Assembly: GCF_030811555.1 (NCBI RefSeq)
Contig: NZ_JAUSQZ010000001.1
Location: forward strand, 2,849,241 to 2,913,240
Reading direction: 5' to 3'
Source of the DNA: Kineosporia succinea
Lineage (GTDB): Bacteria; Actinomycetota; Actinomycetes; Actinomycetales; Kineosporiaceae
DNA: 64,000 nucleotides
In this document: piece by piece, positions 8,910-37,579 of the stretch
How the letters are laid out: each line of letters opens with the position of its first letter
Position numbering within the stretch: the stretch's first letter is position 1
Position numbers and translations under genes: made by a program
Notes under the pieces: generated by a model
Told to the model about the DNA's origin: nothing
The model's input: the letters and a program-made list of their open reading frames with translations, nothing else
Databases searched by the model: none

Positions 8910-9153
8910 GGTCATCCCTTCATTGGGAGTCGTCCGAGCATCCTGACACGGCGGCGCGAGCGCGAACAAGGATGCGGAATGCCTTATACCGAAGCGGTAT
9001 TGAGTGATACCCGGGGGACCTGTCGCGCTACGGGGAGAAGGAGTGGGCCCAGCTCTCGAGGCCGGCACCGCGGCCGCTCTCGTGGCCCGGGCCGCGACGG
9101 CGCCGATGCCTCGCCAGCTCCCCCGGCGCAGGCCGCCGGGGGAGCCACGGGGT
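8910..9153. other. Intergenic region upstream of gudD
   Basis: About 240 nt between the gudD start and the terC stop. It must contain the gudD promoter. I see no ORF, strong hairpin or obvious operator in it. Confidence 0.4.
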
Positions 9154-13168: not shown

Positions 13169-13690
13169 ATGACCTACTCCCCGTTCCCCGAGCTGAACGC
13201 GCTGTGGGACTTCCAGTCCGAGAACGGCTTCGAGTCCTACGCCCAGGGGTTCGGCCTGTACGGCGAGTTCGGCGACCGGGACACGCTGGCGCCCGGCTGG
13301 TCGGGTGACGAGGAGTTCCACGCCCGGCTGAAGGCGTTCGCCCAGGCCACCGGGGGTGGCTCGATCTACGCGCTGTGGGATGCCGGCGACGGCACCCGTC
13401 CGGTCGTCGTCTTCGGCGACGAGGGTGGCATCCACGTGATCGCGGCCGACGTGCGTGACCTCCTGCGCGTGCTCACGTTCGACGTCGAGCCGATGGTCGA
13501 CTGGGACCGCGTGTACTACTTCAAGAGCGACGAGGACGAGCCCAGCGACGAGCACGACCTCTTCGTCAGCTGGCTGCGGGAGACCTTCGGGATCGAGCCG
13601 GTGGACGACGCGGACGCGTTGGTGGAGTCCGCCCAGTCGCGTCACGGTGCGGCTTTCCGGGCCTGGATCGGGCGTTTCGAGCTCGGCTAG
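13169..13690 (+). CDS. Hypothetical protein, possibly SMI1/KNR4 (SUKH)-like
   Basis: 173-residue acidic soluble protein. FGDEGGIHVIAADVRDLLRVL and many aromatic residues in DWDRVYYF recall SUKH-superfamily immunity-type proteins, but I cannot confirm it. A TAGGGT box (13156-13161) ends 7 nt before the ATG, suggesting a leaderless transcript. The stop overlaps the convergent oxidoreductase stop by 4 nt. Confidence 0.7.
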   Translation: MTYSPFPELNALWDFQSENGFESYAQGFGLYGEFGDRDTLAPGWSGDEEFHARLKAFAQATGGGSIYALWDAGDGTRPVVVFGDEGGIHVIAADVRDLLRVLTFDVEPMVDWDRVYYFKSDEDEPSDEHDLFVSWLRETFGIEPVDDADALVESAQSRHGAAFRAWIGRFELG

Positions 13691-15282
13691 CGGTACAGCA
13701 CCTTCATCGCCCGCCCGCGCAGGGCCTTGACCGGCCGCCCCAGGCGGCCTTCGGCGGCCAGGGCCGAGCGGGCCGCGATCCATCCGCAGGCTCCGTGCAC
13801 CCCGCCGCCCGGATGGGTGGAGGCTCCGGCCAGGTACAACCCGTCGATCACGGTCTCCGGGCGGCCGAGCCCGGTGGCCGGCCGGAACACCAGCTGCTGG
13901 TGCAGCTGCGCGGTGCCGCCGTTGATCGCGCCGCGGTACAGGTTCCCGTTCGAGGCCTGCAGGTCGGACGGGTGCTGCACGGTGCGGTGCCGCACCCGGT
14001 CGCGGAAGCCGGGGGCCAGCTCCTCGAGCCTGGCGTCCATCGCGGTGGCGACCTGTCCCGCGTGCGCGTCGTCGTACTTCTCGCGCGGGAGATGTGTGTA
14101 GGCCCAGACGCTTTCGGTGCCGGAGGGGGAGCGTGTGGGGTCGGCCGTGGTCATCTGGCCGAGCAGGGCGAACAGCTCGTCCGGTTCCCGGCCCGAGGCC
14201 AGGTCCGACGACCAGCGCGACAGCCCCGACAGGCCGGTGCCGAAGTGCACCGTGCCGGCCGTGCGGGCGGCCTCGGCGCGCCACGGGATGCCGCCCTCGA
14301 CCAGCCAGTTCACCTTGACCGTGGGCAGATCCCACTCGAACCGCGCCAGATCACGGCGCAGTCGTTCGGGAAGGTGCTCCGCGCCGACCATTTCGTTGAA
14401 CAGGCGAGGTGCATCCACGTCCGCAAGCACTGCTCGCCGCACCGCCACCTCGCGCCCGCTCGCCGTGCGCACCGAGGTCGCGCGCCCTCCCCGGACCCCG
14501 ACCGACACCACGTTCTCGCCGACGTCGATGCGGGCCCCGGCCGACTGTGCGCGGCGCGCCATCGCTTTCGTCAGCATGCCCGAACCACCCTGCGGCACCG
14601 GGAAACCCACGTCCTGCGCGAGCATCACCAGGAGCCAGCCGAAGATCCCGCTGCCCGGTGCCTCCATCGGGACGTCGGCGTGCATGGCGTTGCCGGAGAC
14701 CAGTAGTTTGCCGTGCTCGCCCCGGAACCACTCCTGGGTCAGGCGGATCACCGGCGCCGCGGCGATGCGGGCCAGGTCGAGCGTGTCGTGAGCGCCCGCG
14801 CGCCACAGCAGTTTCGCGCCGGAACGGACCGGGGGGAACGGTGTGAACAGGGCGTCGAGCAGCGGATCACGCAGACGCTGCCACTGCTCGAACAGCCTCA
14901 GCCAGGAATCGCCGTCGCCGGGGGCGTCCGCGTCGAGGGCCTCGGCGGTCCGCGCCGGGTCGCGGTGCACCACGGCGCACCGCTCCTCGTCGGCATCGGC
15001 CACGTGCGCGATCACGCTCGGCGCCTGCACCCAGGTCAGGCCGTGCTGCTCCAGGCTCAGCCGTTTGATCACCGGGGACGCTGCCGCGAGCGGGTAGAAG
15101 GCGCTGAACAGGTCGGACGTGGTCTCGGGAGACTCCGGCCAGAGCGAGCCCGAGCGCACCGCACCGCCGATCTCGTCCTGGGCCTCCAGCACCAGCACGT
15201 CCCAGCCGGCGTCGGCCAGGGCCGACGCGGCGACCAGCCCGTTCGGCCCGGCCCCGATGACCACGGCGTCCACGGTCTCCAT
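13687..15282 (-). CDS. FAD-dependent phytoene desaturase/carotenoid isomerase-type oxidoreductase
   Basis: 531 residues. The N-terminal dinucleotide fold VVIGAGPNGLVAASALADAGW and VLVLEAQDEIGGAVRS bind FAD. Near the C-terminus, GLYLAGASTHPGGGVHGACGWIAA is the CrtI/PDS-like signature that closes the FAD site. No other carotenoid gene is nearby, so this may belong to the widespread NAD(P)/FAD-dependent oxidoreductase group of uncertain substrate (pyridine nucleotide-disulfide oxidoreductase domain 2-like). The ATG at 15282 was chosen for GGAGA upstream and because the FAD motif starts within ten residues. Confidence 0.85.
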   Translation of the reverse strand: METVDAVVIGAGPNGLVAASALADAGWDVLVLEAQDEIGGAVRSGSLWPESPETTSDLFSAFYPLAAASPVIKRLSLEQHGLTWVQAPSVIAHVADADEERCAVVHRDPARTAEALDADAPGDGDSWLRLFEQWQRLRDPLLDALFTPFPPVRSGAKLLWRAGAHDTLDLARIAAAPVIRLTQEWFRGEHGKLLVSGNAMHADVPMEAPGSGIFGWLLVMLAQDVGFPVPQGGSGMLTKAMARRAQSAGARIDVGENVVSVGVRGGRATSVRTASGREVAVRRAVLADVDAPRLFNEMVGAEHLPERLRRDLARFEWDLPTVKVNWLVEGGIPWRAEAARTAGTVHFGTGLSGLSRWSSDLASGREPDELFALLGQMTTADPTRSPSGTESVWAYTHLPREKYDDAHAGQVATAMDARLEELAPGFRDRVRHRTVQHPSDLQASNGNLYRGAINGGTAQLHQQLVFRPATGLGRPETVIDGLYLAGASTHPGGGVHGACGWIAARSALAAEGRLGRPVKALRGRAMKVLYR

Positions 15283-25304: not shown

Positions 25305-25381
25305 GGCCAGGTAGCTCAGTTGGTACGAGCGTCCGACTGAAAATCGGAAGGTCGACGGTTCGACCCCGTCCCTGGCCACCA
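25305..25381 (+). tRNA. tRNA-Phe (GAA) with encoded CCA; integration site
   Basis: Acceptor GGCCAGG pairs with CCTGGCC, anticodon loop CTGAAAA gives GAA, T-loop GGTTCGACCCC; CCA is encoded at 25379-25381. Its 3' part from 25336 onward is duplicated exactly at 35102-35155. The element therefore integrated into this gene and restored it with its own copy of the 3' end. Confidence 0.96.
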
Positions 25382-25389
25382 GAACAAAA
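25336..25389. repeat. attL: 54-bp direct repeat overlapping the tRNA-Phe 3' end
   Basis: 54 nt identical to 35102-35155. It spans the anticodon loop to just past the CCA and begins ACTGAAAATCGGAAGG. It sits beside the integrase gene, as expected for attL. Confidence 0.93.
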
Positions 25390-25428
25390 GCGCCCCTGAC
25401 CTGCGGAAACGCAGGGCGGGGGCGCTTT
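25387..25428 (+). terminator. Terminator behind tRNA-Phe, supplied by the element
   Basis: AAAGCGCCCC pairs with GGGGGCGCTTT across an inner CTGCG/CGCAG stem and ends in a short T run. The host's own related hairpin is now at the far end (35154-35191). Confidence 0.75.
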
Positions 25429-25478
25429 CTGGTTTGCTCACTGGGACCGTTCCGATGGGCTAGTTGCTCACGTATTGC

Positions 25479-26789
25479 TCACAAGGTGCGGCGATCGGGG
25501 CGGTGTCGTGTCAGAAGCTTCGCCGCTTCGTTGACCTGTTGAGCGGCCTCACCCCGGATCAAGTGGGCGTAGACCTGTCGTGTCACCTGCGGGGAGGAGT
25601 GCCCGAGGATGAGCTGAACGATCTCGATCGGGACGCCGCCGGCCAGCATCAGGGAACACGCGCCATGCCGGGTGTCGTGCAGTCTGACCGAGGGAAGGTC
25701 GCAGGCGCGCGCCTGACGCTCGAACTCCACGGTCACCCTGTCTGGGCGCAGGGGTACGCCGTCGGGGCGGCAGAAGACCAGGTCGTGGTCCTGGTAGTCG
25801 GACCCCATGAAGTCCTTCTCGGCGTTTTGGCGCTCACCGTGCCGCTGGAGAGCTTCCTGTGCGGGAGAGGCCAGAGGCACCCACCGGCGCCCCTTGCGCG
25901 ACTTGGGTGCCTTGAACAGGCGGCCGACGTGTTCGGCGGCGCACGCCGGGCAGGCGGCCTGCTGGGGCGTGATCTGTTTCCGGGTCACGGACACGATCGT
26001 CTGTCGCACCCGGAGGCCGGCGCCGTCGGGATCGATGTCCGACCAGCGCAGGCCGCACAGCTCCGCTCGGCGGAGTCCCGCATAAGCCGCGAGCTCGTAC
26101 AGCGCCGATAGCCGATCGTCGAACATGTGCTCAAGAAAGCGCGCCGTCTCGGCCGGCTGCCACACAACGGGTTCGTCGTCATCGTCGATCTCTGAGGCGG
26201 TGGAGATTGAATCCATCTGTCCCATGGCCGGATTGACTGCTATCAGCTCTCGCCGTTGAGCCGCCGAGAGAGCGGCCCGGAGGGTACGGCGATATCCGTC
26301 AATGGTTGCGGAGGATCGCTTTTCGACTCGACGCCCGACGTTGCCGGCCGGACGGTCCCCGTCGATCGGTGCAGACAGGGCAGCGAGAACGGACTCGATC
26401 TGACTGCGGCGAAGGTCTCGAAGTAGAACGTTGCCGAGATAAGGCTTCCATGCGTCCCTGACGTGCCCACGGTAGTTCTTGATGGTGTTCACCGATCGAC
26501 CACCCGCCACCATTTCCGCGAGCCACTGATCAAGCCACTTGCCGAGAGTCATTCGCTGGTCGTCGGTCCATGTCCCGGTGTTCAGCTTCGTCAGCTCTGC
26601 CGTAAGCGCTTCCTCGGCAAAATCTTTGGTGCGGAAGCCGCTTCGGGTGATCTGGCGGCGCTTGCCAGTGGTGGAATCCGTTCCGGCGTCAACGGTGTAT
26701 GACCAGGAACCGTGCTGCTTTCGGCAGTTCTTCACTCGGCGACCATCGGCGGTCCGGCATTGGCAGCGCTTGGAAACGGAGCCACGCAT
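25479..26789 (-). CDS. int: Tyrosine recombinase (integrase) of the element
   Basis: 436 residues, the size of actinomycete element integrases. N-terminal arm-binding part with SGFRTKDFAEEALTAE, core-binding SAM-like domain (about 85-190), then the catalytic domain: Arg in AAYAGLRRAELCGLRW, Lys in APKSRKGRRWVPL, HxxR in LHDTRHGACSL, His in LGHSSPQVT, and nucleophile Tyr in RQVYAHLIRG. An inserted CPACAAEH segment in the catalytic domain may bind metal. The ATG at 26789 follows AAGGA. It reads toward attL and ends 90 nt from it. Confidence 0.96.
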   Translation of the reverse strand: MRGSVSKRCQCRTADGRRVKNCRKQHGSWSYTVDAGTDSTTGKRRQITRSGFRTKDFAEEALTAELTKLNTGTWTDDQRMTLGKWLDQWLAEMVAGGRSVNTIKNYRGHVRDAWKPYLGNVLLRDLRRSQIESVLAALSAPIDGDRPAGNVGRRVEKRSSATIDGYRRTLRAALSAAQRRELIAVNPAMGQMDSISTASEIDDDDEPVVWQPAETARFLEHMFDDRLSALYELAAYAGLRRAELCGLRWSDIDPDGAGLRVRQTIVSVTRKQITPQQAACPACAAEHVGRLFKAPKSRKGRRWVPLASPAQEALQRHGERQNAEKDFMGSDYQDHDLVFCRPDGVPLRPDRVTVEFERQARACDLPSVRLHDTRHGACSLMLAGGVPIEIVQLILGHSSPQVTRQVYAHLIRGEAAQQVNEAAKLLTRHRPDRRTL

Positions 26790-26877
26790 TCTTTGAGAAT
26801 CCTTCTGGGGTAGGGATATGACGGTGGGTTGCGGCACGGGCCGTGCGGATACGTGGCACGGCCCGTGCCAGGGTTGA

Positions 26878-27132
26878 TTACCGCTGGATGTCGTCGCCGG
26901 AGACCTTGCGGAGGGCGCGCTCCACATCCTCATCGGTGGCTTCGGGAAGGTCGTTCAGCCAGGCGTTGAACCTGGCCTTGGGGATAACCCAGCGGTCCCC
27001 AATCTTTTTCGCGGGAATCTCTCCCTTCCGGATCATCGTGTACGTCGTCCCTCGGGACAGGGAGAGAAGCTGCGCCACTTCCATGACGGTGTAGACGGCC
27101 CGGTTGGATTCGATGCGGACGACGGTGCTCAC
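26878..27132 (-). CDS. xis: Helix-turn-helix excisionase-like protein
   Basis: 84 residues. YTVMEVAQLLSLSRGTTYTMIRKGEIPAKKIGDRWVIPKARFNAWL is a MerR-like/AlpA-type HTH_17 domain typical of element excisionases. GTG at 27132 with GGAGG 5 nt upstream; it overlaps the stop of the preceding gene by 4 nt (GTGA). Position just upstream of int supports the Xis role. Confidence 0.88.
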   Translation of the reverse strand: MSTVVRIESNRAVYTVMEVAQLLSLSRGTTYTMIRKGEIPAKKIGDRWVIPKARFNAWLNDLPEATDEDVERALRKVSGDDIQR

Positions 27133-27476
27133 GGAGCCTCCAGGTCGATGGTGGTCATGCAGAAGTCGCAGAGTCCGTAGGCGTAGAGCAAGGGGCCGCA
27201 GAAGGCGAGGTTGAGGTTGAGGGTGTCGACCTCGCGGCGGCAGCGGTCGCAGGTGTTGTCCTCGGCTCCTTGGGGGTCGAGCAGGGGGAAGCAGGTCGGG
27301 CAGGCGATGTGGTCGGGTGCCCAGGCGGCGGCGCATCGGGTGGGTGTGGTGGCCAGGTGCGGGCAGGCTCGGAGGTTGCCGGCGGCGGCACGGTCGGCGA
27401 TGGTGCGGACCTTGTTCATGAGCCAGGCGGGCGTGGCGCTGGTGTCCAGGTGGGTGGTGATCGTGGGGCGAGACAT
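27129..27476 (-). CDS. Cys-rich zinc-ribbon-like element protein
   Basis: 115 residues. Cys pattern includes ACPHL, HIACPTC, NTCDRCRREVD and LCDFCMTTID, suggesting one or two zinc-binding knuckles. Similar small proteins precede xis in actinomycete integrative elements, but I cannot name a family. Coupled to xis through GTGA. Confidence 0.78.
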   Translation of the reverse strand: MSRPTITTHLDTSATPAWLMNKVRTIADRAAAGNLRACPHLATTPTRCAAAWAPDHIACPTCFPLLDPQGAEDNTCDRCRREVDTLNLNLAFCGPLLYAYGLCDFCMTTIDLEAP

Positions 27477-27585
27477 GGTGGTGGCGTGTCCTCTCGCGGG
27501 TGGGGACGGCAGGAGCGGCTAGAGCATTAGGCGGGAATCCGAGGGTGTTTCAGCCGGTGTTCGCGGCTCGCGGCCGGTGGTGGGT

Positions 27586-27662
27586 CTAGGTCCTAGTGGC
27601 CTGCTCGGAGCTGGTTTTTGGGTCTAGGGGTGCCTCTAGGGCTAGGGGCCGGGTGGCTCTAG
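27586..27662. repeat. CTAG cluster A (six CTAG in 77 nt)
   Basis: CTAG at 27586, 27593, 27624, 27636, 27642 and 27659, mostly within CTAGG or CTAGGGG. CTAG is usually rare in GC-rich genomes. The surrounding 27480-28060 stretch has no gene. Confidence 0.75.
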
Positions 27663-27904
27663 GGGTCTTGGTCGTGCCGGGCGGATCGAGCTCGGCCGGC
27701 GGGGTTAACCCGCTCGGAGCAGAGTTAGCTTTGTAACTCCGTCGCCGGGAGGTGTTATCTGTGGGCTGACCTGCGGTGAGTTAGGAAGTTAAGCGAGTTA
27801 GGTGCGGCCCGCAGAGGGCCTGGTAGGGGCCGGATGAGCCGTTTCGGGGAGGGGTCAGGGACGTAACTCGCCGGGCGCTCGGTCCCCGGCCGGATTGGGG
27901 CGCC

Positions 27905-28007
27905 GCAGAACCCGCACAACCTGCACAACCCCTGCCGACCGGTCGTGACCAGGCGCGTTGCTTCCCGGTCTCTGGTTCCGCAGAACTGTGCAGAACCCGC
28001 AGAACCT
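27905..28007. repeat. 9-bp iteron array, left copy
   Basis: Tandem units GCAGAACCC, GCACAACCT, GCACAACCC at 27905-27931, then GCAGAACTG at 27980 and GCAGAACCC, GCAGAACCT at 27990-28007. An inverted counterpart lies at 34502-34604. Confidence 0.85.
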
Positions 28008-28063
28008 CCTGCCGCGACGCGGGATCGGTTGAACCTGCTCTGTTGGTGTAGATCCTCGGGTGG

Positions 28064-29659
28064 TCATTGGTCCTGCTTGCCGGGGGTGTGGTGGGTGGCC
28101 GGGTGGACGTCGTAGCGGGGGGACGGTGGCCGGCCGCCTTTGCGGGGGCCGGGCGGGGGTTCCTGCTGTTTGATCCAGCCGGTGTCTTCGAGCGTGGCCA
28201 GGGGCGCGTCCAGGTCGGTGGCTTTCGGGAACCGGGATCGGGGCAGGGCGTTGAAGGCGTCTCGGCGGGTGAAGGTTTCGGTGCCGGTGCGGGTGATCCA
28301 GTCCAGGACGGCGCGGGCGTCGTCGGTCTGGGTGTCGGAGCCCATGAGGTCGAACACGGCCAGGGCGTGAGCGAGGTAGTAGGTGCCCAGTCGTGCTGCA
28401 CCGTGCATGGTTTCGAGGCTGACCGGGTGTGTCCAGGCGTCGGGGTGTTCGGCCAGGTGCAGGAGGCCGGCCAGGCGGGTGGTGGCTCCGATGAGCTTGG
28501 AGGCCCAGTCGGTGACGTGGGCCAGGCTCGCGCCGGGGGCCAGGCGGGGTTCTAGCTCGGTCTCGAGTCGCAGGACTTCCTGTGCGGCTTCGGGGGTGAG
28601 GGTCAGGACGGCGGGGTCGGTCCACTCGGCCAGGGTCAGCACGAGGGCGCACAGGCGGTCGCTGTAGGCGGTGAGAACCTGCTCGGTTGGTGCGGGCGGG
28701 CCGATCTGTCGTCGGCCGACGGTGTTCTCGGGTAGGGAGTACAGGATTCGACCGAGCAGCCCACGTCCCCGGAACCCGGGCATCCCGGCGATGTCGCGCA
28801 GCACGTCGGGCTGCACGGCCAGGCCGAGGGTGAGGGCCGGGGCGGTGATGTGCTCGGCGTCGCGGCCCTTGCGGTCCACGCGCATCATGTCCCCGGCGTG
28901 GCCCTTGAGGAACACCTCAAGGTTGGGGGTGCCGGAGTAGCGGCCGGCGATCGTGGCGAAGATGCCGCCCTCGGCCGACAGGACGGCCAGGCGTCCGCCC
29001 TGCTCGGCCAGCAGGGACGTTGCGGTTTCGGGGGTGATGTCGTCGGCGACCAGGCGCGGGATGACGGGGACCGTGATCCCCCGGACCTCGGCCGCACTGC
29101 CCAGGGCATCGGCGAACGCGTCGTGCCCGCCCTGCTCGGCGGTGCGGGCGAGCTTTTCGGCGTTGGCCTGAGCCACCCGCAGCATGAGGGCGGACTCGTC
29201 GATCTGGTGGGCGACCTGTTCGGCCAGGGCTCGTTCAGCGGCCAGGATCGGCCCGGTCAGGGCCTTGAAGACCGGGGACTTGCGGGAGCCGGGCGGCAGC
29301 GCGACGACGGTGAACAGGTTCACCGGTTCACGCCACCCGGCGCGGACCTCGACCACGGCCCGTCCGCCGGCCGCTGTGGACAGCGCGGCCAGGGCGATGC
29401 ACCCGGCCAGGTCCGGCGGGGTCTGGTTGAACACGGTCACGGCCTCGACCTGGTCTCGGACCCAGGCGGGGAACACGTCGACCGGGAACGGCGGAAGCAT
29501 CCGGGCCGGGGACAGCGGGGTTGGTGGTCCGTCCCACTGCGGCGGCACCCGGTCCGCCTGTCCGGCATGGTCGGCCTGTGGGGGCGTGTCGAGGTCGGGG
29601 ACGGCCCGGACAGGACCGCGACGGTGCGGGGCGCTGGGACGCTCGGCGTTGACGCTCAT
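28064..29659 (-). CDS. DUF3987/YfjI-like replication-associated protein
   Basis: 531 residues. PAWVRDQVEAVTVFNQTPPDLAGCIALAALSTAAGGR and a P-loop-like VALPPGSRKSPVFKAL match the DUF3987 (YfjI) family, which accompanies primases in phage and integrative elements. The C-terminal 100 residues resemble a winged helix (FTRRDAFNALPRSRFPKATDLDAPLATLEDTGWI). ATG at 29659 overlaps the small repeat-protein stop. Likely role is in element replication with the primase-polymerase upstream, perhaps as helicase or loader; that role is inference. Confidence 0.85.
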   Translation of the reverse strand: MSVNAERPSAPHRRGPVRAVPDLDTPPQADHAGQADRVPPQWDGPPTPLSPARMLPPFPVDVFPAWVRDQVEAVTVFNQTPPDLAGCIALAALSTAAGGRAVVEVRAGWREPVNLFTVVALPPGSRKSPVFKALTGPILAAERALAEQVAHQIDESALMLRVAQANAEKLARTAEQGGHDAFADALGSAAEVRGITVPVIPRLVADDITPETATSLLAEQGGRLAVLSAEGGIFATIAGRYSGTPNLEVFLKGHAGDMMRVDRKGRDAEHITAPALTLGLAVQPDVLRDIAGMPGFRGRGLLGRILYSLPENTVGRRQIGPPAPTEQVLTAYSDRLCALVLTLAEWTDPAVLTLTPEAAQEVLRLETELEPRLAPGASLAHVTDWASKLIGATTRLAGLLHLAEHPDAWTHPVSLETMHGAARLGTYYLAHALAVFDLMGSDTQTDDARAVLDWITRTGTETFTRRDAFNALPRSRFPKATDLDAPLATLEDTGWIKQQEPPPGPRKGGRPPSPRYDVHPATHHTPGKQDQ

Positions 29660-29868
29660 CGGACACCACCGTCCGCGACCGCACCGGACAACCGGGCGGA
29701 CATCGGGGCGGACATCTGGCCGGACAGTTCGGGGGCGTTGAGGGTCGGTGCGGGCAGGGTGTTGGCCCTGGTCAGTGGGGTGATCGTGTCCGGTCGAATG
29801 TCGGGCTCCTTGTCGGTGCGAATGTCGGGCACGGTGTCGGCCCTGATGTCGGTTCGGGTGTCGGTCAT
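29656..29868 (-). CDS. Small D-x-R repeat protein bridging primase and DUF3987 genes
   Basis: 70 residues. The first 27 consist of degenerate repeats (DTRTDIRADTVPDIRTDKEP and on), then a Pro/Leu-rich part. The ATG at 29868 has AGGAG 6 nt upstream. It overlaps the primase stop by 4 nt and the DUF3987 start by 4 nt, so all three are translationally coupled, which is strong evidence that it is a real gene. No family recognised; the repeats look disordered and charged. Confidence 0.75.
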   Translation of the reverse strand: MTDTRTDIRADTVPDIRTDKEPDIRPDTITPLTRANTLPAPTLNAPELSGQMSAPMSARLSGAVADGGVR

Positions 29869-30890
29869 GCCGCGCTCCTGCGGGTCGAGGTTGCGGGCAG
29901 GGTGCGGGGACGCTCGGCGCCGCGTCGCAGCCCGGACGCGATGGTCCGGACGGTTTCGGTGTCGCTCTGTCCGACAGCTCTCGCGGCCGGTGTCAGCACG
30001 TCGTGGACGGTCTGCTCGCTCAGGGCGCCACCGGCGACCAGTTGTCCGAGCTGAACCGCGGCGGCGTACACGGCGCGGTTGCGGGTGCCGTCCCCGGCCG
30101 CGTGGATTGAGGCCACGGCCCCGTTCACGGCCGCTTCGAGGTAGGCCCGGGCACGGGCGTTCCCACCGTGAAGCCGCACCGGGGACGGCCCGGCCACCGG
30201 CGCCGGGCGCGGGGCGAGTACCTCGGCCAGCCACCCGGGCAAGGGCGCGGCCGGGGCGTCGTGGTCGTGCGCGCGGTAAGGGCGGCTGGCCACGATCGTG
30301 GGCGGGGCGACCACGTACCCACCGTGTGCCCGGGTGTCGACCAACCACCCGAGGTGCCCGGCCGTCGAGCGCAGCCGGGGCGCGTCCGGGCCGCTCGGGG
30401 CGGCGAAGTACAGGTGCGTCCCGCCGGACCCGGTGCTGACCGTGTATGTGTCCAGCGGGACCGGCTGACCGGACCGAGCACACAGCAGGTCGAAAACGTC
30501 TGCACCGTCAATGATCCCGGGTTCGGTCCACTCGGCCGGCGGGCGGGTGAGTGCGCCGTCAGGGCCGGTCTTGGGCCGGTCGAGGTCGATCACGACCAGG
30601 TCGGAGGGGCCGGTAGCGATCCCGATGCCGAACGGCACTCGCGACCAGGCCGCCTCGATCCGGCCGGGATCGGTGGTGGCCCGCTCCTGCCACGGCACGT
30701 GCCGTCCTGCCCGGCGGCATCGGGGATCGGTTGCGGTGCAACGGGTCTCGGAGTGTTCAGGGAACGCGGGACGTTTGTCCCCCGGCCGCAGCGGGAAGAC
30801 GTGCCACCCGCGTGCGGCGTAGGCCAGCGCGGCCGGCACCAGGGCGCCGTGCTGCTCGGGTGCGGGGTGAGGACCGGTGATCCAGCTCAA
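29865..30890 (-). CDS. Bifunctional DNA primase/polymerase (Prim-Pol, archaeo-eukaryotic primase family)
   Basis: 341 residues. AARGWHVFPLRPGDKRP opens the Prim-Pol domain; the metal-binding acidic motif is in DLVVIDLDRPKTGPDG, the S-x-H-like motif in STGSGGTHLYFAAP, and HGGYVVAPPT follows. The C-terminal part has a helical region with a conserved NRAVYAAAVQLGQLVAGG. TTG at 30890 is chosen because GAGAGGAG lies 8 nt upstream and the domain begins about 20 residues in; upstream in-frame sequence is low-complexity. It would prime replication of the excised element. Confidence 0.9.
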   Translation of the reverse strand: MSWITGPHPAPEQHGALVPAALAYAARGWHVFPLRPGDKRPAFPEHSETRCTATDPRCRRAGRHVPWQERATTDPGRIEAAWSRVPFGIGIATGPSDLVVIDLDRPKTGPDGALTRPPAEWTEPGIIDGADVFDLLCARSGQPVPLDTYTVSTGSGGTHLYFAAPSGPDAPRLRSTAGHLGWLVDTRAHGGYVVAPPTIVASRPYRAHDHDAPAAPLPGWLAEVLAPRPAPVAGPSPVRLHGGNARARAYLEAAVNGAVASIHAAGDGTRNRAVYAAAVQLGQLVAGGALSEQTVHDVLTPAARAVGQSDTETVRTIASGLRRGAERPRTLPATSTRRSAA

Positions 30891-30952
30891 CGGCTGATCT
30901 CCTCTCGGTTGACGCGGATCAGGGACGCTGGTGGGGGCGGGGGGTTGCCTCC

Positions 30953-31363
30953 TCAGGGGTTGAGGGTGTTGGCGCGAGAAGTCCCGAACCGCAGGTAGTT
31001 CGGGTGACGCTCGCGCATCCGGGCCAGGTGCAGGCGCTGGCCCATGCTCCGGGCCGCGTCGAAGCGTCGGCTCCCGCCGGTCATCACCCGGTAGGCGTCC
31101 GTCAGTTCGGCCCGCTCCCGCGAGTCCATGCCGCCCTCGCGCATCCGGGCGGCGGTCACGCTCATCTCGGCGTCGAGCATCAGGACGCGGGCGATACCGA
31201 CCCGGTCCACGATCACGGCGGCGACCAGGTCGTGAAGCTCCTGCACACTCAGCCGGTCCCGATCGGCCGGCGACCACTCATCGGTCAGCAGCAGAGCGGC
31301 GGCCAGGTGACTGGCCGCGAGATCCGCGACCCAGGAAAGGTTTCCCGACTCCAGAGTCTGCAT
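30953..31363 (-). CDS. Hypothetical element protein
   Basis: 136 residues, mostly helical, MQTLESGNLSWVADLAASH at the N-terminus and a basic C-terminus (MGQRLHLARMRERHPNYLRFG). AAGGGG lies 7 nt before the ATG. No recognised family. It is the first gene of the replication block after the CTAG cluster B. Confidence 0.7.
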   Translation of the reverse strand: MQTLESGNLSWVADLAASHLAAALLLTDEWSPADRDRLSVQELHDLVAAVIVDRVGIARVLMLDAEMSVTAARMREGGMDSRERAELTDAYRVMTGGSRRFDAARSMGQRLHLARMRERHPNYLRFGTSRANTLNP

Positions 31364-31428
31364 CGCACGTCCCCTTCACGACAGGAAGAACATCTACGGA
31401 GCGTTACGGATCGACGGAGGGACGCAGC

Positions 31429-31597
31429 GCTAGCGAGCGGCGCGGGGCTGTGTCCGAAACGGCGTGAACACGGGGTTTCACGCATCGGCCGGCGGATCGG
31501 TGCTAGTTGCTAGCGTCCTGGCCAGAGCCCGGACAGACTGCTAGCGGGGGTGCTAGCGCTAGCAGGGCCAGGTGCTAGAGCGAGCAGCCCTGCTAGC
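31429..31597. repeat. CTAG cluster B (eight CTAG, six as GCTAGC)
   Basis: CTAG at 31430, 31503, 31510, 31541, 31553, 31559, 31575 and 31593. GCTAGC palindromes are at 31429, 31509, 31540, 31552, 31558 and 31592. The cluster fills the gap between two minus-strand genes. Confidence 0.85.
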
Positions 31598-31608
31598 GCC
31601 CGCTCCCA

Positions 31609-32133
31609 CTACGGACGGTGAATGCCGGCCAGAGCCCGGGGGCGCGTCGCGCGGGCCGGTCGCGCGGGCTGGGTGCACGGAACCTGAGTGGGAACCGGGG
31701 CCGGGCCGGGGTCGAACCCGAACGCGGCATCCACGGCCCGCGAGATCAGGGCGAAGCACTCGGCCAGGTCGTGGCCGGCGTAGCTGTCCTGAAACTCGTC
31801 GGTCTCGATCGTGCCCTTGACCCGCCAGGAACCGGCGGACATGTAAGCGCCGAGAACCCACTCGCGGAAGGTGTCCGCGTCGAGGTCCGCGATGTCATCG
31901 CCGGTCCACCCGGCCTGGATCGCCGTCATACCGGCCGCAACCAGAACCTCACGGCCGAACGGGATCGCGATCCACGCGGACTGCTCGGTCAGGGGCCAAC
32001 CGCGACCGGCGGCGGCAACGAGATCCGCCTCGTGTGTGGTGGTGGCAATCTCACGACTGTCGGCCAGGAAGAACCGGTTGCCGAACTCGGACCGCTCGGC
32101 TTCACGGGGAGCAAGGATAGGCTTGACCTGCAT
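31609..32133 (-). CDS. Hypothetical element protein
   Basis: 174 residues, MQVKPILAPREAERSEFGN at the start; acidic middle with WTGDDIADLDADTFREWVLG; Pro/Ala/Arg-rich tail. AGGAGA lies 6 nt before the ATG at 32133. Not recognised. Transcribed from the divergent promoter that carries the 10-bp phased repeats, so it is probably controlled by the GntR regulator on the other side. Confidence 0.72.
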   Translation of the reverse strand: MQVKPILAPREAERSEFGNRFFLADSREIATTTHEADLVAAAGRGWPLTEQSAWIAIPFGREVLVAAGMTAIQAGWTGDDIADLDADTFREWVLGAYMSAGSWRVKGTIETDEFQDSYAGHDLAECFALISRAVDAAFGFDPGPAPVPTQVPCTQPARPARATRPRALAGIHRP

Positions 32134-32260
32134 CGTTCTCTCCTGACCTAGGAAGTGTCGATGTACGAGGTCCGGCGGCTGAGCCCCGCCGGGCCTCACT
32201 CGTTTTGCGGCCTTGCCAGTGGCGCTGCTCCGGTTGGGTGAACCTTCTGAGCACTTCCCC

Positions 32261-32310
32261 AAGGTTCCATAGGGTTCCAAAGGGTGTCAAGCAGTTCCCT
32301 AGGGTTCCTG
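32261..32310. repeat. Five 10-bp phased AGGGTTCC repeats in a divergent promoter
   Basis: Consecutive 10-nt blocks AAGGTTCCAT, AGGGTTCCAA, AGGGTGTCAA, GCAGTTCCCT, AGGGTTCCTG. They share one face of the helix and lie between the minus gene starting at 32133 and the GntR gene at 32366, where an autoregulatory operator is expected. Confidence 0.8.
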
Positions 32311-32365
32311 CTGGAAGCGCGGTAGGCTTGGAGTCGTCAGTGACGCATCGGCAAGGAGCGAAGAA

Positions 32366-33124
32366 ATGCCAGGTCAGGCCGACAATCGGGCGCCATACGC
32401 GAAGATTGCCGCGCACTACATGGAGCTCATCTCATCTGGCGCTTTGCAGCCGGGGACCTTGCTGCCGAGCATCAAGGCGCTCTCGGAGGAGTGGAAAGTC
32501 AGCACGACCACGGCAGAGAAGGCTCTCCGCAAGCTGCGGGACGAAGGGCTTGTCCGTGGGATTCACGGCATCGGCACTGAGGTGCTCGATCAGCCGGCGC
32601 CGATGTCATCGGGTGCTCAGCGGCAGGATCGCGGGCGGCGCACTGGTTCTAGTTGGGGATCTGGTGAGCGATCTGACTCGCACGCGGCGGACGTAGTGCC
32701 GGCGCCTGTCGATGTGGCCCAGGCCCTTGATATCCAGCCCGGAGCCGAAGTTGTCCGTCGGAGCCGGGTGTACCGAGACCGGCATGGCATTGTGGCTCAA
32801 AGTACGTCGTGGATTCCGATGCGTTTCGGAAAGCTCATTCCGCAGCTGCTATCCAGTGAGCGACTGACAGGCGGAACGTCGTTGCAGCTCATTGCGAAAG
32901 TGACGGGAAACCCAATCAGTCATCGAATTGACACCGCGTCAGCGCACCTGTTGACGACGGAAACTGCTCTCCTGTTAGAGCTGGACCCGGACAATCCACC
33001 ATCGGATCCCGTAGTAGTGATGACTGCAAAGTTTGTGGACAGTGAAGGCGAAATTGTGGAGTACGGTGTCGATCTCGGTGGGCCGGGACGGACATGGCGC
33101 ACGGAGTCAGAGGTATCGCCGTGA
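32366..33124 (+). CDS. GntR/HutC-family transcriptional regulator
   Basis: 252 residues. GntR winged helix (about 8-75: YAKIAAHYMELISSGALQPGTLLPSIKALSEEWKVSTTTAEKALRKLRDEGLV) and a C-terminal UTRA ligand domain (about 110-245, VVRRSRVYRDRHGIVAQSTSWIPM). This type is the usual repressor of actinomycete integrative elements (KorSA/TraR-like). AAGGAG precedes the ATG. Its stop overlaps the next gene by 4 nt. Confidence 0.92.
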   Translation: MPGQADNRAPYAKIAAHYMELISSGALQPGTLLPSIKALSEEWKVSTTTAEKALRKLRDEGLVRGIHGIGTEVLDQPAPMSSGAQRQDRGRRTGSSWGSGERSDSHAADVVPAPVDVAQALDIQPGAEVVRRSRVYRDRHGIVAQSTSWIPMRFGKLIPQLLSSERLTGGTSLQLIAKVTGNPISHRIDTASAHLLTTETALLLELDPDNPPSDPVVVMTAKFVDSEGEIVEYGVDLGGPGRTWRTESEVSP

Positions 33125-33687
33125 CCGGTGGTGATGTAAAGCTGCCCCAATCACCGTTCTGCGTTCTGATGGTAGGACTCCCCGGCTCGGGAAAAACTAC
33201 TCTCGCGCGTGCACTTACCGATCGAGGGTATGAGCGCATTTCTCCTGATGAAGAAATGTTTCGCAGGCATGGTGTCTATGGAGTGGATTTTCCGCGAGGT
33301 ATATTTCCAACTTTGGAAAAGCCGGTGCTGGAAGAGACTCGTGTAGTCCTCGCAGATCTTCTGCGATCTGGAAAAAACGTGGTTGTAGATCACGGATTCT
33401 GGACTCCGGAAGACCGAGCGCTTTGGCGTGAAACGGCGGAGGGGGCAGGCGCCAGAACAGCTCTGGTGTATCTCGAAGCCACCCATGAGGAGTTGTGGGA
33501 GCGAATCGAGAAGCGCAACAAGTATCACGAGAATGATCCGAACTCGATCTATTTTGCCGAGAGTGATTTGAAGCGCTATCGAGCCCGCTTCATCCCTCCT
33601 CAGGCTGACGAGCCGCATCTGTTGTACGACGGTGATGCCGACATCGTGCGGGTGTGGGAGGAGTCTGAGGCGCGACCGTCGGAGTAG
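33121..33687 (+). CDS. P-loop kinase-like ATPase (AAA_33 type), element cargo
   Basis: 188 residues. Walker A in LMVGLPGSGKTTLARAL, then ERISPDEEMF (acceptor-site-like), and VVVDHGFWTPEDRALWRETAE. The fold matches small polynucleotide/antibiotic/zeta-type kinases; the true substrate is unknown. GTG start overlaps the GntR stop (GTGA), so regulator and kinase form one operon. Base composition is clearly more AT-rich than neighbours, pointing to separate acquisition. Confidence 0.82.
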   Translation: MTGGDVKLPQSPFCVLMVGLPGSGKTTLARALTDRGYERISPDEEMFRRHGVYGVDFPRGIFPTLEKPVLEETRVVLADLLRSGKNVVVDHGFWTPEDRALWRETAEGAGARTALVYLEATHEELWERIEKRNKYHENDPNSIYFAESDLKRYRARFIPPQADEPHLLYDGDADIVRVWEESEARPSE

Positions 33688-33769
33688 TTCTGTGCAGGGT
33701 CTCTGTGGATCGTGTGATTTCTGTGGCGAACGGCCATCGCTGTGATGATGGCGGCGTGACGGCTTCCGT

Positions 33770-34393
33770 GTGCAGTATCAGTTAGGCCATGATGGCCCGG
33801 TGCTTACGACGGCTCAAACAATCGCCGAGACGGCCCCCTGGTGGTTCGCCGGCACCATCGGCCTAGCTGGTGTGACGATCGGCGTGATCCTTAAATGGAT
33901 TACCGATGCTCTCTCGCAGCGGAACAGGAATAGGCGAGAGTCGCAATACCGGTTTATCGCTGATAAGCGGACTGCTTTCACCAACTTTCTTGCAGCCTCC
34001 CACGCGGTGGCGGACGTCCGGGAGCAGATGCGGGACCATGAGGTGCGTAGGTTGCAGTTGGACGCCAAAGATTCAAGCCAGGCTGAGGACGATGAATTCA
34101 ACGAAAAGCTGGATCATTTAGGCCGAGCATGGGAGTCATCATGGTCTGACCTTCGGGAGGCAGTTGCCATGATCGACCTCATAGCCGACAAGGCGACAAT
34201 CAGCGCGTGTCACGCTCTCGCCTCGGTCGCGCATCGGAAGCACGGCCTTCGCCGACGATGGGAGGCAGAGGAGAAGTTCATAGCGGAGGCTCGGCGCGAG
34301 CTTGAAGCCGTGCCCGTCAAAGACGCAACTGCATGGGTTCCGGAGGACTTTGCTGATGACGAGGATGAGGAGGAGCAGGAGGCCTCGCGGTAG
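33770..34393 (+). CDS. Membrane-anchored coiled-coil hypothetical protein
   Basis: About 207 residues from GTG 33770; a later start is possible. One N-terminal TM (APWWFAGTIGLAGVTIGVILKWI) is followed by a long helical region with charged heptads and an acidic tail ending DEDEEEQEASR. Topology suggests a cytoplasmic domain tethered to the membrane. No family recognised. Last gene of the element's right arm. Confidence 0.65.
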   Translation: MQYQLGHDGPVLTTAQTIAETAPWWFAGTIGLAGVTIGVILKWITDALSQRNRNRRESQYRFIADKRTAFTNFLAASHAVADVREQMRDHEVRRLQLDAKDSSQAEDDEFNEKLDHLGRAWESSWSDLREAVAMIDLIADKATISACHALASVAHRKHGLRRRWEAEEKFIAEARRELEAVPVKDATAWVPEDFADDEDEEEQEASR

Positions 34394-34501
34394 TTCGCGG
34401 GCGATGGCCCGGATTCTCAGCCCGGAGATGGGACTGTGAGACGACATCCCCCATATCGCGGCGTGAGTCAGCGGCTGGCCAGCCGTGCTGGCCGCCGGGC
34501 A

Positions 34502-34604
34502 GGGTTGTGCGGGTTTTGTGAAGTTCTGCGGAGGTGAAGCCCGCGAAGCAACATGCCTGGTCACGGCTGGTCAACAGAGGTTGTGCAGGTTGTGCGGGTT
34601 CTGC
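34502..34604. repeat. 9-bp iteron array, right copy (inverted)
   Basis: AGGTTGTGC at 34578 and 34587 and GGGTTCTGC at 34596; further units GGGTTGTGC at 34502 and GGGTTTTGT at 34511. Read on the minus strand 34578-34604 matches 27905-27931 at 26 of 27 positions. Confidence 0.85.
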
Positions 34605-34610
34605 GTGAGA

Positions 34611-34772
34611 GGTAGCGGTAGCGGCTGGGGAGCACCCGCGGGGCAGGTTACTGAGGGATTCTGCAGCCGTCGAGACGGCCGCCGCTACCCGGGGATTGCG
34701 GGCATCGATGCTGGTCACGTGCGGGCGGGAGCGGTAGCGGCTGAGGTGACGTCGCCGCTACCCAGGTAGCGG
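34611..34772. repeat. GGTAGCGG 8-bp repeat cluster (six copies, both orientations)
   Basis: GGTAGCGG at 34611, 34617, 34733 and 34765; CCGCTACC at 34682 and 34755. Short 8-bp repeats of this kind are the layout of transfer loci recognised by TraB-type translocases in Streptomyces plasmids; the sequence itself differs from those I know. Confidence 0.78.
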
Positions 34773-34844
34773 CTCGCGGGGAAGGCGCCGGCATGTTCCG
34801 CCAGGCCAAATTCCGTGCGGGCGGTGGCAACGTCTGTCGGGCCG

Positions 34845-34938
34845 CTAGGCCGCAAGAGACCAGGCGGCAGAGGGCGGGAAGGGCAAGACGATGCCTAGCG
34901 GGTCCGCTAGGGCTAGCGGGTCGGGTCGCTAGGCCTAG
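34845..34938. repeat. CTAG cluster C (six CTAG in 94 nt)
   Basis: CTAG at 34845, 34895, 34907, 34913, 34929 and 34935. CTAGCGG-GT-CCGCTAG (34895-34910) is a perfect 7-bp dyad. It overlaps no convincing gene and lies 165 nt inside attR. Confidence 0.8.
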
Positions 34939-35101
34939 CGGGGTACGACGTGCCCTGTCGGGCTTGCTCACGGACTGCTCACGAGACCGTTGGCACTGCG
35001 TGATACCAGGTGACACGTCGGGTCGGGGTGAATGGCCTCTGAGCTGCGGGGGAACCACGCGTAGCGCATCCAAAGTCACCAGTTTGCAGGGGTACTCGCA
35101 C

Positions 35102-35155
35102 ACTGAAAATCGGAAGGTCGACGGTTCGACCCCGTCCCTGGCCACCAGAACAAAA
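35102..35155. repeat. attR: duplicated tRNA-Phe 3' segment
   Basis: 54 nt identical to 25336-25389. The 5' half of a tRNA is absent, so this is not a functional tRNA gene. Confidence 0.93.
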
Positions 35156-36040: not shown

Positions 36041-37579
36041 ATGTCGCCTACGACCGGTAAGTCCAGCAGAGTCGGACCTGTTCGCGCCGCGCTGGCGGGC
36101 CTGGTGGCCGCCGGGCTTGCGCTCGGAGTGGCCGAGCTGGTGGCCGGCGCCATCGGCCGGGCGGTGGCGCCCGCGATCGTGGTCGGGGGTGCCGCGATCG
36201 ACCGGACCCCGCGCTGGCTCAAGGAATTCGCCATCGAGCAGTTCGGCGAGAACGACAAGAACGTCCTCCTGACGGGAATTTTCGTCACCGTCGCGGTGCT
36301 CGCGGCAGTGGTCGGAGTGATTGCCGGACGGCATCGCCGGGTCGGTCTGGTCGGTGCCGCCCTCCTGGGCGTGGTGGCCGCGGCCGCCGCGGCCACGCGT
36401 CCGCAGGCCCATATCATCGACGTGGTGCCATCTTTGGTGGCCGCTGTCGTTGCCGTGGTCGCCCTGGCCGGTCTGCTCTCGGTCAGTGCTCCCGGCCGGT
36501 CGGCCGAGGGGCCCGGGCGCCGGGCGGTTCTGCTGACGTCGGGGCTGGCTGTCGCCGCCGGGTTCGCCGGGGTCGCGGGTCGCCGTCTCCAGAACCTGCG
36601 GACGGACGTGGCGGCGTCGCGTCGGGCCCTTCGGCTCCCGGCGCCCACCACGGCCGCTCCGGCCCTGCCGCCGGGCGCGATGCTCGACGTGAACGGGGTC
36701 AGTGCCTTCTACACGGCGCCGGCTGACTTCTACCGGGTGGACACGGCCCTCTCGGTGCCCCGGCTGACCACGGACGAGTGGAGTCTCAAGATCCACGGAA
36801 TGGTCGAGAGGGAGATCACTCTCGACTTCGACGACCTGCTCGCGCGCCCGATCGTCGAGAACGACATCACGATGACCTGCGTGTCGAACGAGGTCGGCGG
36901 CGGTCTGGTGGGCACGGCCCGCTGGCTCGGCGTCGAACTCGCCCCGCTGCTGCGGGAGGTCGGTGTCGACCCGAACTCGGACCAGCTGGTCGGCACCTCG
37001 GTGGACGGGATGACGATCGGCACGCCGGTCTCGGCCCTGATGGACGGCCGGGCGGCGATGCTGGCGATCGCGATGAACGGCGAACCGCTCCTGCCGCAGC
37101 ACGGATTTCCCTGCCGCATGGTGGTGCCGGGGCTCTACGGATACGTCAGTGCGACGAAATGGCTCGTCGATCTCGAGCTCTCGAGGTTCGACGCGTTCGA
37201 TCCGTACTGGGTGCGGCGGGGCTGGGAACAGCAGGCGCCGATCAAGACCAGTTCGCGCATCGACACGCCGCGTCCGCTGGCCCGGGTCAAGCCGGGCAAG
37301 GTGGCCGTGGCCGGGGTGGCCTGGGCCCAGCAGCGGGGCATCAGCAAGGTCGAGGTGCGGGTCGACGGCGGATCCTGGCAGGAGGCCGAGCTTTCGGCGC
37401 GGGTGAACGACGACCTGTGGCGGCAGTGGGTCTGGACCTGGGACGCGGCCGAGGGCTCGCACACGCTGCAGGTCAGAGCCACGGACCGGGAAGGCGAACT
37501 GCAGACCGAGGACCGCGCCGAGCCGTTCCCGAACGGCTCCTCCGGGTGGCAGTCGATCGTCGTCACCGTAGGCGCCTGA
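36041..37579 (+). CDS. Membrane-anchored molybdopterin-dependent oxidoreductase (sulfite oxidase/MsrP family)
   Basis: 512 residues. N-terminal half has four to five TMs (for example VRAALAGLVAAGLALGVAELVAG, VLLTGIFVTVAVLAAVVGVI). The extracytoplasmic part holds the oxidoreductase molybdopterin domain with the Mo-ligand Cys in ITMTCVSNEVGG, LVGTARWLGVEL and FPCRMVVPGLYGYVSATKW, then a Mo-co dimerisation domain at the C-terminus (WAQQRGISKVEVRVDGG). Substrate unknown. GGAGG precedes the ATG. The next gene encodes a fasciclin lipoprotein, a pairing often seen in actinobacteria. Confidence 0.92.
   Translation: MSPTTGKSSRVGPVRAALAGLVAAGLALGVAELVAGAIGRAVAPAIVVGGAAIDRTPRWLKEFAIEQFGENDKNVLLTGIFVTVAVLAAVVGVIAGRHRRVGLVGAALLGVVAAAAAATRPQAHIIDVVPSLVAAVVAVVALAGLLSVSAPGRSAEGPGRRAVLLTSGLAVAAGFAGVAGRRLQNLRTDVAASRRALRLPAPTTAAPALPPGAMLDVNGVSAFYTAPADFYRVDTALSVPRLTTDEWSLKIHGMVEREITLDFDDLLARPIVENDITMTCVSNEVGGGLVGTARWLGVELAPLLREVGVDPNSDQLVGTSVDGMTIGTPVSALMDGRAAMLAIAMNGEPLLPQHGFPCRMVVPGLYGYVSATKWLVDLELSRFDAFDPYWVRRGWEQQAPIKTSSRIDTPRPLARVKPGKVAVAGVAWAQQRGISKVEVRVDGGSWQEAELSARVNDDLWRQWVWTWDAAEGSHTLQVRATDREGELQTEDRAEPFPNGSSGWQSIVVTVGA

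Follow-up and report, generated by a model that had tools for sequence, protein, structure and literature searches.

Can an integrative element that carries replication genes, and no gene for transfer or for a capsid, be mobile, and what would move it? This question is raised by a compact element of 9.77 kb integrated at a tRNA-Phe gene of Kineosporia succinea, in a window of 64,000 nucleotides (the whole stretch of DNA analyzed, positions 2,849,241 to 2,913,240 of NZ_JAUSQZ010000001.1) of its chromosome, a single contig of 8.07 Mb. A first-pass annotation described the element as replicative and proposed that it depends on a helper. Our analysis points, with a probability of about 0.6, to a transfer-less member of the lineage of actinomycete integrative conjugative elements (AICEs), which would be self-excising, self-replicating and carried between cells by a helper. 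The sequence features that suggest this are an integrase, an excisionase, att repeats at tRNA-Phe, an AICE layout without FtsK, a sister element also without FtsK, and arrays of iterons; a satellite or mobilizable status, with dependence on a helper, may be inferred from them.

Integration Site and Element Boundaries

The element is delimited by two copies of a 54-nt direct repeat, identical in 54/54 positions and separated by 9766 nt from start to start (Table 1). A 36-nt stretch of this repeat was found at only two sites of the 8.07-Mb chromosome, even with up to three mismatches allowed, and therefore a chance origin of the repeat is excluded. Thus, the earlier claim of exact 54-bp att repeats bounding an element of around 9.8 kb in tRNA-Phe was confirmed. 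Short CTAG-rich repeats are also found at 27580-27660 and 34890-34960, close to both element ends, and are possibly integrase arm sites.

Comparison of empty sites by the downstream flank DNA was precluded by its divergence, and the tRNA cluster was used as anchor instead. The tRNA-Glu/Asp/Phe cluster was found in all five other genomes of the genus, and seven element proteins (E≤1e-5) were absent from the 6-14 kb beyond it in each of these five congeners. Two of them (L100 and L101) show an ortholog of the chromosomal gene 36041-37579 around 2-3 kb past tRNA-Phe. The element therefore occupies this site in one of six genomes of the genus, and its insertion is limited to K. succinea among those compared. 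The expectation of related elements at other tRNA-Phe sites failed in this search, limited to the genus (0/5 congeners); that of a related element elsewhere held, in the form of a transfer-less sister (L140) found in a tRNA-Ala of another actinobacterium. One congener (L102) shows the tRNA-Asp/tRNA-Phe pair doubled in tandem at the same site (13364-13859).

An AICE Layout Without FtsK

The minus strand of the element contains, in this order, genes for the integrase, an excisionase-like helix-turn-helix (HTH) protein, the 115-residue ZNF115, a DUF3987 protein, a bifunctional primase/polymerase (Prim-Pol) and the orphans H136 and H223; the plus strand contains genes for a GntR/UTRA regulator, a P-loop kinase-like protein and a 207-aa protein. 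Twenty open reading frames (ORFs) were compared with Pfam, and the 10 main ORFs also with PHROGs, PADLOC and NCBIfam, with some short ORFs outside the scan. No FtsK, relaxase or capsid family was found in the 10 main ORFs according to Pfam and PHROGs, and the 10 further ORFs of the interval showed no Pfam family. A relaxase, as expected in an integrative mobilizable element of the relaxase type, was not found by Pfam in the 20 ORFs, with no oriT search made. Furthermore, tblastn with 20 FtsK-type proteins detected no tra remnant (best E 0.11). A hidden tra, relaxase or capsid gene was rejected on the scans of the 20 ORFs and the lack of a remnant. These results bear out the first-pass annotation in its integrase and excisionase-like gene, its Prim-Pol and DUF3987 protein (E-values in Table 1), and its lack of a translocase, relaxase or virion gene.

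Few near kin of K. succinea have a DUF3987 relative (one of 147 relatives searched, besides K. succinea itself); across the class such relatives are more frequent (26/394 genomes, K. succinea included). A single DUF3987 or H223 protein as query found no relative in viral contigs, and an alignment of 15 rows matched nine of them. In total, 115 loci were compared: the K. succinea element, 26 further loci, nine viral contigs and 79 genome contigs. Class flanks were fetched for 22 of the 25 other matched genomes, omitting the partial matches G270, G362 and G461; the 79 genome-contig loci represent the best 80 of 370 relatives, and shares of tra-positive loci are thus not population estimates.

The nearest DUF3987 kin, at 50-63% identity, are AICEs. 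A TraB profile based on 16 of the compared loci detected FtsK in 79 of the 115 DUF3987 loci, duplicates counted. Among the 109 distinct loci, 73 contain FtsK and 25 do not, their 5' flank being 5.8 kb or longer; in the other 11 the 5' flank is too short to judge. All 45 loci showing the three genes (duplicates counted) have FtsK between the divergent GntR and DUF3987. In the K. succinea element, this position between GntR and the replication genes is occupied by the orphans H223 and H136. A circular Streptomyces sp. NBC_00562 record of 18,451 bp contains the full module set plus FtsK, in the order GntR, DUF2637, RRQRL zinc protein, FtsK, Prim-Pol, DUF3987 ("YfjI"), HTH and integrase, and the K. 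succinea element shows this type of layout minus the FtsK block. In nine of nine Pseudonocardia loci (L116, L119, L129, L130, L135, L137, L139, L143 and L157), a TrwC relaxase gene replaces FtsK and is combined with the Prim-Pol/DUF3987 replicon. Dactylosporangium roseum (L136/L138) shows two successive DUF3987/FtsK units within about 20 kb, likely a tandem accretion of two AICEs.

A Sister Element Without FtsK

The sister element L140 is located in contig PMJN01000029.1 of a Micrococcales metagenome-assembled genome (MAG). It shares with the K. succinea element DUF3987 (74% identity), the excisionase-like protein (63% over 71 aa), ZNF115 (41%) and H223 (31%), while the integrase differs (25% identity). 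L140 is bounded by a 48-nt repeat of 96% identity, with one copy in tRNA-Ala and the copies 13.7 kb apart. No FtsK was detected in L140 with the TraB profile, nor is one concealed in an assembly gap, since the only N run has two bases and lies within the GntR gene.

In the DUF3987 tree, the K. succinea element and L140 are sisters with a Shimodaira-Hasegawa-like approximate likelihood ratio test (SH-aLRT) support of 100, and the enclosing clade of 13 rows (SH-aLRT 95) adds two FtsK-bearing MAG loci and the nine Pseudonocardia loci. This tree is of the quick kind, with a long-branch warning outside the clade of the element, and across all its rows the tra label needs at least eight changes. Differences between both DUF3987 genes at codon positions 1, 2 and 3 are 18, 11, and 45% (489 codons), respectively; their concentration at position 3 indicates that selection maintained DUF3987 in both elements. 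The loss of FtsK thus appears to predate the split between the element and L140, so that the missing tra would be inherited rather than a fresh decay, with replication carried on.

This bears on the reading of the element as an immobile remnant, an AICE minus its transfer genes that persists by vertical descent only. Such a remnant would explain the lack of a transfer gene and of a helper signature, and the presence in one of six genus genomes at the site; however, the att repeats are exact, the core genes are all open frames, no tra remnant was found, and a tra-less sister whose DUF3987 is under purifying selection is found at another tRNA in another genome. We therefore regard it as rather unlikely.

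Iteron Arrays Adjoining DUF3987

Two blocks of 103 nt in inverted orientation carry tandem 9-bp repeats GCASAACCY, one on the 3' side of DUF3987, 58 bp from its stop codon, and the other toward the distal end of the element (Table 1). Exact tandem pairs of the iteron occur five times in the 8.07-Mb genome, all inside the element, and a genome scan with up to two mismatches gave 42 matches versus 12 for the reversed control. Pairs of the form CASAA-N4-CASAA number five in the element, with a mean of 0.02 and a maximum of one in 300 shuffles.

Related loci also show a cluster of 9-mers directly 3' of the DUF3987 stop codon, often palindromic. Its spacing is +11, +20, +29 and -55, -64, -73 in Micromonosporaceae, and +23, +32, +88, +109, mirrored, in Streptomyces, while the copies in L140, three direct and two inverted, overlap the stop codon. 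With scoring corrected for composition, 59 of 107 loci reach at least four, and 40 of the 107 beat all control windows of their own locus; the K. succinea locus was beaten by 0/17 control windows and L140 by 1/23. The shared iteron core is CASAA. The regions immediately 3' of DUF3987, 38.8 kb in total, contain 124 CASAA-N4-CASAA pairs, compared with 28 in the other 2.04 Mb (around 230-fold); the reversed pattern gave none in these 3' regions and 15 in total, and shuffled 3' regions gave almost no pairs. At least one pair was found in 47 of 109 loci, 33 of them in both orientations, distributed as 33/73 FtsK loci, 6/9 TrwC loci, 2/2 loci of the branch of the element and 6/25 others.

In place, spacing and symmetry, the iterons agree with a replication origin recognized by the product of the adjacent gene, and the array is likely such an origin. 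With clustered short direct and inverted repeats adjoining a putative initiator gene, the element shows what is expected of an iteron-type replicon, and its replicative character, as first annotated, appears strengthened. Since the second array is found on the far side of the att site and int-xis, both arrays would flank the int-xis module in the circle, around 3 kb apart. A reading of the iterons as clt-like sites bound by a host TraB is disfavored, as exact tandem pairs are found nowhere else in the host and the same motif has the same place in TraB, TrwC and transfer-less elements. Among the open-access papers covered, none pairing an AICE with an iteron was found, and the origin motif is likely, not certainly, new.

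Gene Content and Predicted Proteins

The features of the element are listed in Table 1. The HTH part of the excisionase-like ORF stops near 27100 and its start is uncertain, as is that of the Prim-Pol ORF, whose domain spans residues 150-349. The GntR/UTRA regulator may have a KorSA-like role. The AAA_33 kinase-like protein is probably cargo; its further P-loop matches are weak and include a "terminase small subunit" family (E 6e-4). All PADLOC matches were weak (E 3e-7 to 4e-4), and no defense system was called. A tRNA-Arg predicted by ARAGORN at 28105-28189 was rejected as cargo, because it lies inside the DUF3987 gene and is unsupported by Rfam; it is probably spurious.

Table 1. Features of the K. 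succinea element (positions in the window).
Feature	Position	Strand	Evidence or remark
tRNA-Phe (GAA), integration target left intact by insertion	25305..25381	+	ARAGORN; Rfam tRNA 71 bits
att repeat, tRNA side	25336..25389	+	begins in anticodon arm of tRNA-Phe
Tyrosine integrase, start codon uncertain	25479..26933	-	PF00589 E 2e-20, Arm-DNA-bind_4; phrog_1 E 3e-73
Excisionase-like HTH protein	26878..27336	-	PF12728 (HTH_17) E 7e-15; NCBIfam "excise" TIGR01764
ZNF115, 115 aa, cysteine-rich	27129..27476	-	no Pfam or PHROG family at E<1e-3
Iteron array A, six 9-bp repeats GTTSTGCR (CASAA on other strand)	27904..28006	-	58 bp 3' of DUF3987 stop
DUF3987 protein	28064..29659	-	PF13148 E 2e-110; phrog_2373 "DNA helicase"
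Prim-Pol (bifunctional primase/polymerase)	29865..31277	-	PF09250 E 1e-41
H136, orphan ORF overlapping Prim-Pol ORF	30953..31363	-	no family in Pfam, PHROGs, NCBIfam
H223, orphan, at position of relatives' FtsK/TraB	31609..32280	-
GntR/UTRA regulator, divergent from replication genes	32366..33124	+	PF00392 E 4e-14, PF07702 E 1e-13
AAA_33 P-loop kinase-like protein	33094..33687	+	PF13671 E 9e-27
TM207, N-terminal hydrophobic stretch predicted	33770..34393	+	ORF call, no family above cut-off
Iteron array B, inverted copy of array A	34503..34605	+	inverted repeat with array A over 103 nt, 82% complementary
att repeat, distal end	35102..35155	+	exact copy of tRNA-side repeat

The structure model of DUF3987 (mean predicted local distance difference test, pLDDT, of 85) shows a helical, AAA+-like core and a C-terminal winged helix. 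Foldseek gave one PDB match with E≤0.001, an MCM (E 9e-4, template modeling scores 0.34/0.31); other fold matches were MCM, RuvB and similar proteins, with the SaPI5 primase-helicase at E 0.04. DUF3987 is thus predicted to be an AAA+-like replicative helicase, with no finer assignment, in agreement with an earlier prediction of a helicase in the available text of PMC5862659.

For H136, a comparison of locus ORFs gave no relative. The sole clear relative of H223 is that of L140 (8731-9540; 31% over 137 columns, E 2e-12), and searches of plasmids, of viral contigs and of the 393 other class genomes gave none; an ORF of L148 gave a weaker match (E 7e-5), and one genome of the phylum sample matches the L140 copy in its C-terminal HTH part only. 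The H223 model, built from two sequences, has a mean pLDDT of 50 and was left out of the fold search. ZNF115 is probably zinc-binding. Its kin lies after DUF3987 in L059, and in the tailed prophage L194, which has terminase and portal genes, it is found directly after the primase/helicase genes (8562-9008). Since its kin is found in a DUF3987 locus as well as in a prophage, ZNF115 tracks replication modules and is no proof of phage life.

Possible Helpers in the Host

An AICE was found in a tRNA-Arg of the host (chromosome about 2629344-2644173; L011 4345-19174), with an integrase, RepSA, a 503-aa FtsK and a 111-nt att repeat of 98% identity whose copies are 14.7 kb apart. Just past its distal att there are tandem 8-bp repeats CCCGGCAG (18 overlapping copies listed) and 17-bp repeats. 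A second host locus shows RepSA, FtsK and GntR, and no att repeat or integrase was found in it. The host also has three matches to the terminase large subunit, one with an internal stop, and no TrwC was found in its genome. The search of the rest of the genome, as proposed at first, thus finds both kinds of possible helper, and no DNA signature links the element to either.

The terminases raise the possibility of a phage satellite, in which a helper phage would induce excision and package the circle, as in the satellites known as phage-inducible chromosomal minimalist islands (PICMI) and phage-inducible chromosomal islands (PICI). According to the available text of PMC10803314, DUF3987 serves as a satellite marker, and the integrase, the HTH_17/AlpA-type regulator and the DUF3987 replication gene are, alongside fis, PICMI marker kinds; the element shares these three, as well as a small size and a tRNA site, and kin of its ZNF115 is found in a tailed prophage. 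However, no fis is found among its 20 ORFs, it has no packaging gene and no known helper phage, and its gene order and nearest kin are those of AICEs. The 60-kb stretches around the three terminases showed no clear DNA in common with it, with two matches of 41-60 nt (E 0.007-0.02) compared with one at E 0.02 in the control. A phage satellite is thus unlikely. As both helper kinds exist in the host, ancestry alone discriminates between them, and a conjugative helper is somewhat likelier than a phage because of the AICE gene order.

Proposed Model and Comparison With Known Systems

According to the helper-carried AICE model, GntR would keep the replication operon off and, on its release, Int and Xis would cut out the element as a circle of about 9.77 kb. 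As a predicted AAA+ helicase with a C-terminal winged helix, DUF3987 would then bind the CASAA iterons and open the origin, where Prim-Pol would prime. The circle would be passed on by a helper, which is most likely conjugative and of the TraB/FtsK type, like the element of the host itself; this type moves double-stranded DNA, and no relaxase would be needed. H223, and perhaps ZNF115, would be genes of the lineage in place of the transfer block. A more specific version, which we consider quite doubtful, is a lineage of hitch-hikers with the replicon and regulator layout of AICEs, in which H223/ZNF115 recruit the double-strand translocase of the helper and the inverted CASAA arrays act both as origin and as loading site for the helper.

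Several points weigh against the helper-carried AICE model. Apart from a short stretch next to the att site, no DNA is common to the element and the host FtsK elements, and outside the element the host lacks the iteron. The CASAA motif was defined after inspection of the data, and 62 of the 109 loci show no pair as defined; a cruder count without composition correction does not distinguish the array of the element, which has five copies, as shuffles reach up to five and four of 11 other windows have the same number. L140 lacks Prim-Pol, and the FtsK-type genes of its MAG, which may be incomplete, lie in open frames of 750 and 1568 aa, unlike the TraB type of around 500 aa seen in K. succinea. 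Finally, the lineage has only two known members, so independent losses, or one loss followed by drift in each, are possible.

AICEs have RepSA, RepAM or Prim-Pol replication, and SLP1 belongs to the Prim-Pol type with a RepPP (SCO4618-like) gene, according to the available text of PMC3218068. The Prim-Pol AICEs (SLP1-type; DUF3987/TraB loci L042-L054, L065 and most of L112-L190) show the same order of integrase, excisionase, divergent GntR, Prim-Pol and DUF3987 as the element, tRNA sites, and iterons 3' of DUF3987. The K. succinea element differs in its size of 9.8 kb, in H223/H136 at the place of FtsK, in the added ZNF115 and in that no DUF2637 or RRQRL protein was found. Among the features that define an AICE, it has the integrase with att repeats and the Prim-Pol replication module, and lacks the FtsK/SpoIIIE-type translocase (TraB). 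AICE-like elements without tra or rep are known: four from Frankia are listed as remnants or mobilizable in the same available text. They are alike in this lack, as compared by description, with no shared lineage or origin described there. The Streptomyces plasmid pWTY27, in the available text of PMC3583192, is a primase/polymerase replicon (RepB) with a 522-aa RepA, which binds the iteron in vitro, and an adjacent iteron with an inverted repeat of ~105 bp; the iteron letters differ, pWTY27 has its own tra, and RepA and DUF3987 are likened by description only.

The element is thus a real and intact-looking transfer-less relative of AICEs with one sister, and its dependence on a helper is fairly inferred. 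As far as their available texts describe, AICE surveys sought or required FtsK/TraB (PMC3218068, PMC9513070), with elements classed by traB in the latter, and transfer-less relatives would therefore have been missed or set aside as remnants. The family-wide iteron array is the most reusable result: the motif beside DUF3987 marks a candidate origin across many actinobacterial elements, makes DUF3987 testable as an iteron-binding helicase, and offers a direct route to mini-replicons from TraB, TrwC and transfer-less elements. If true, the tra-less lineage would be an actinobacterial counterpart of mobilizable islands, moved by double-strand, relaxase-free transfer.

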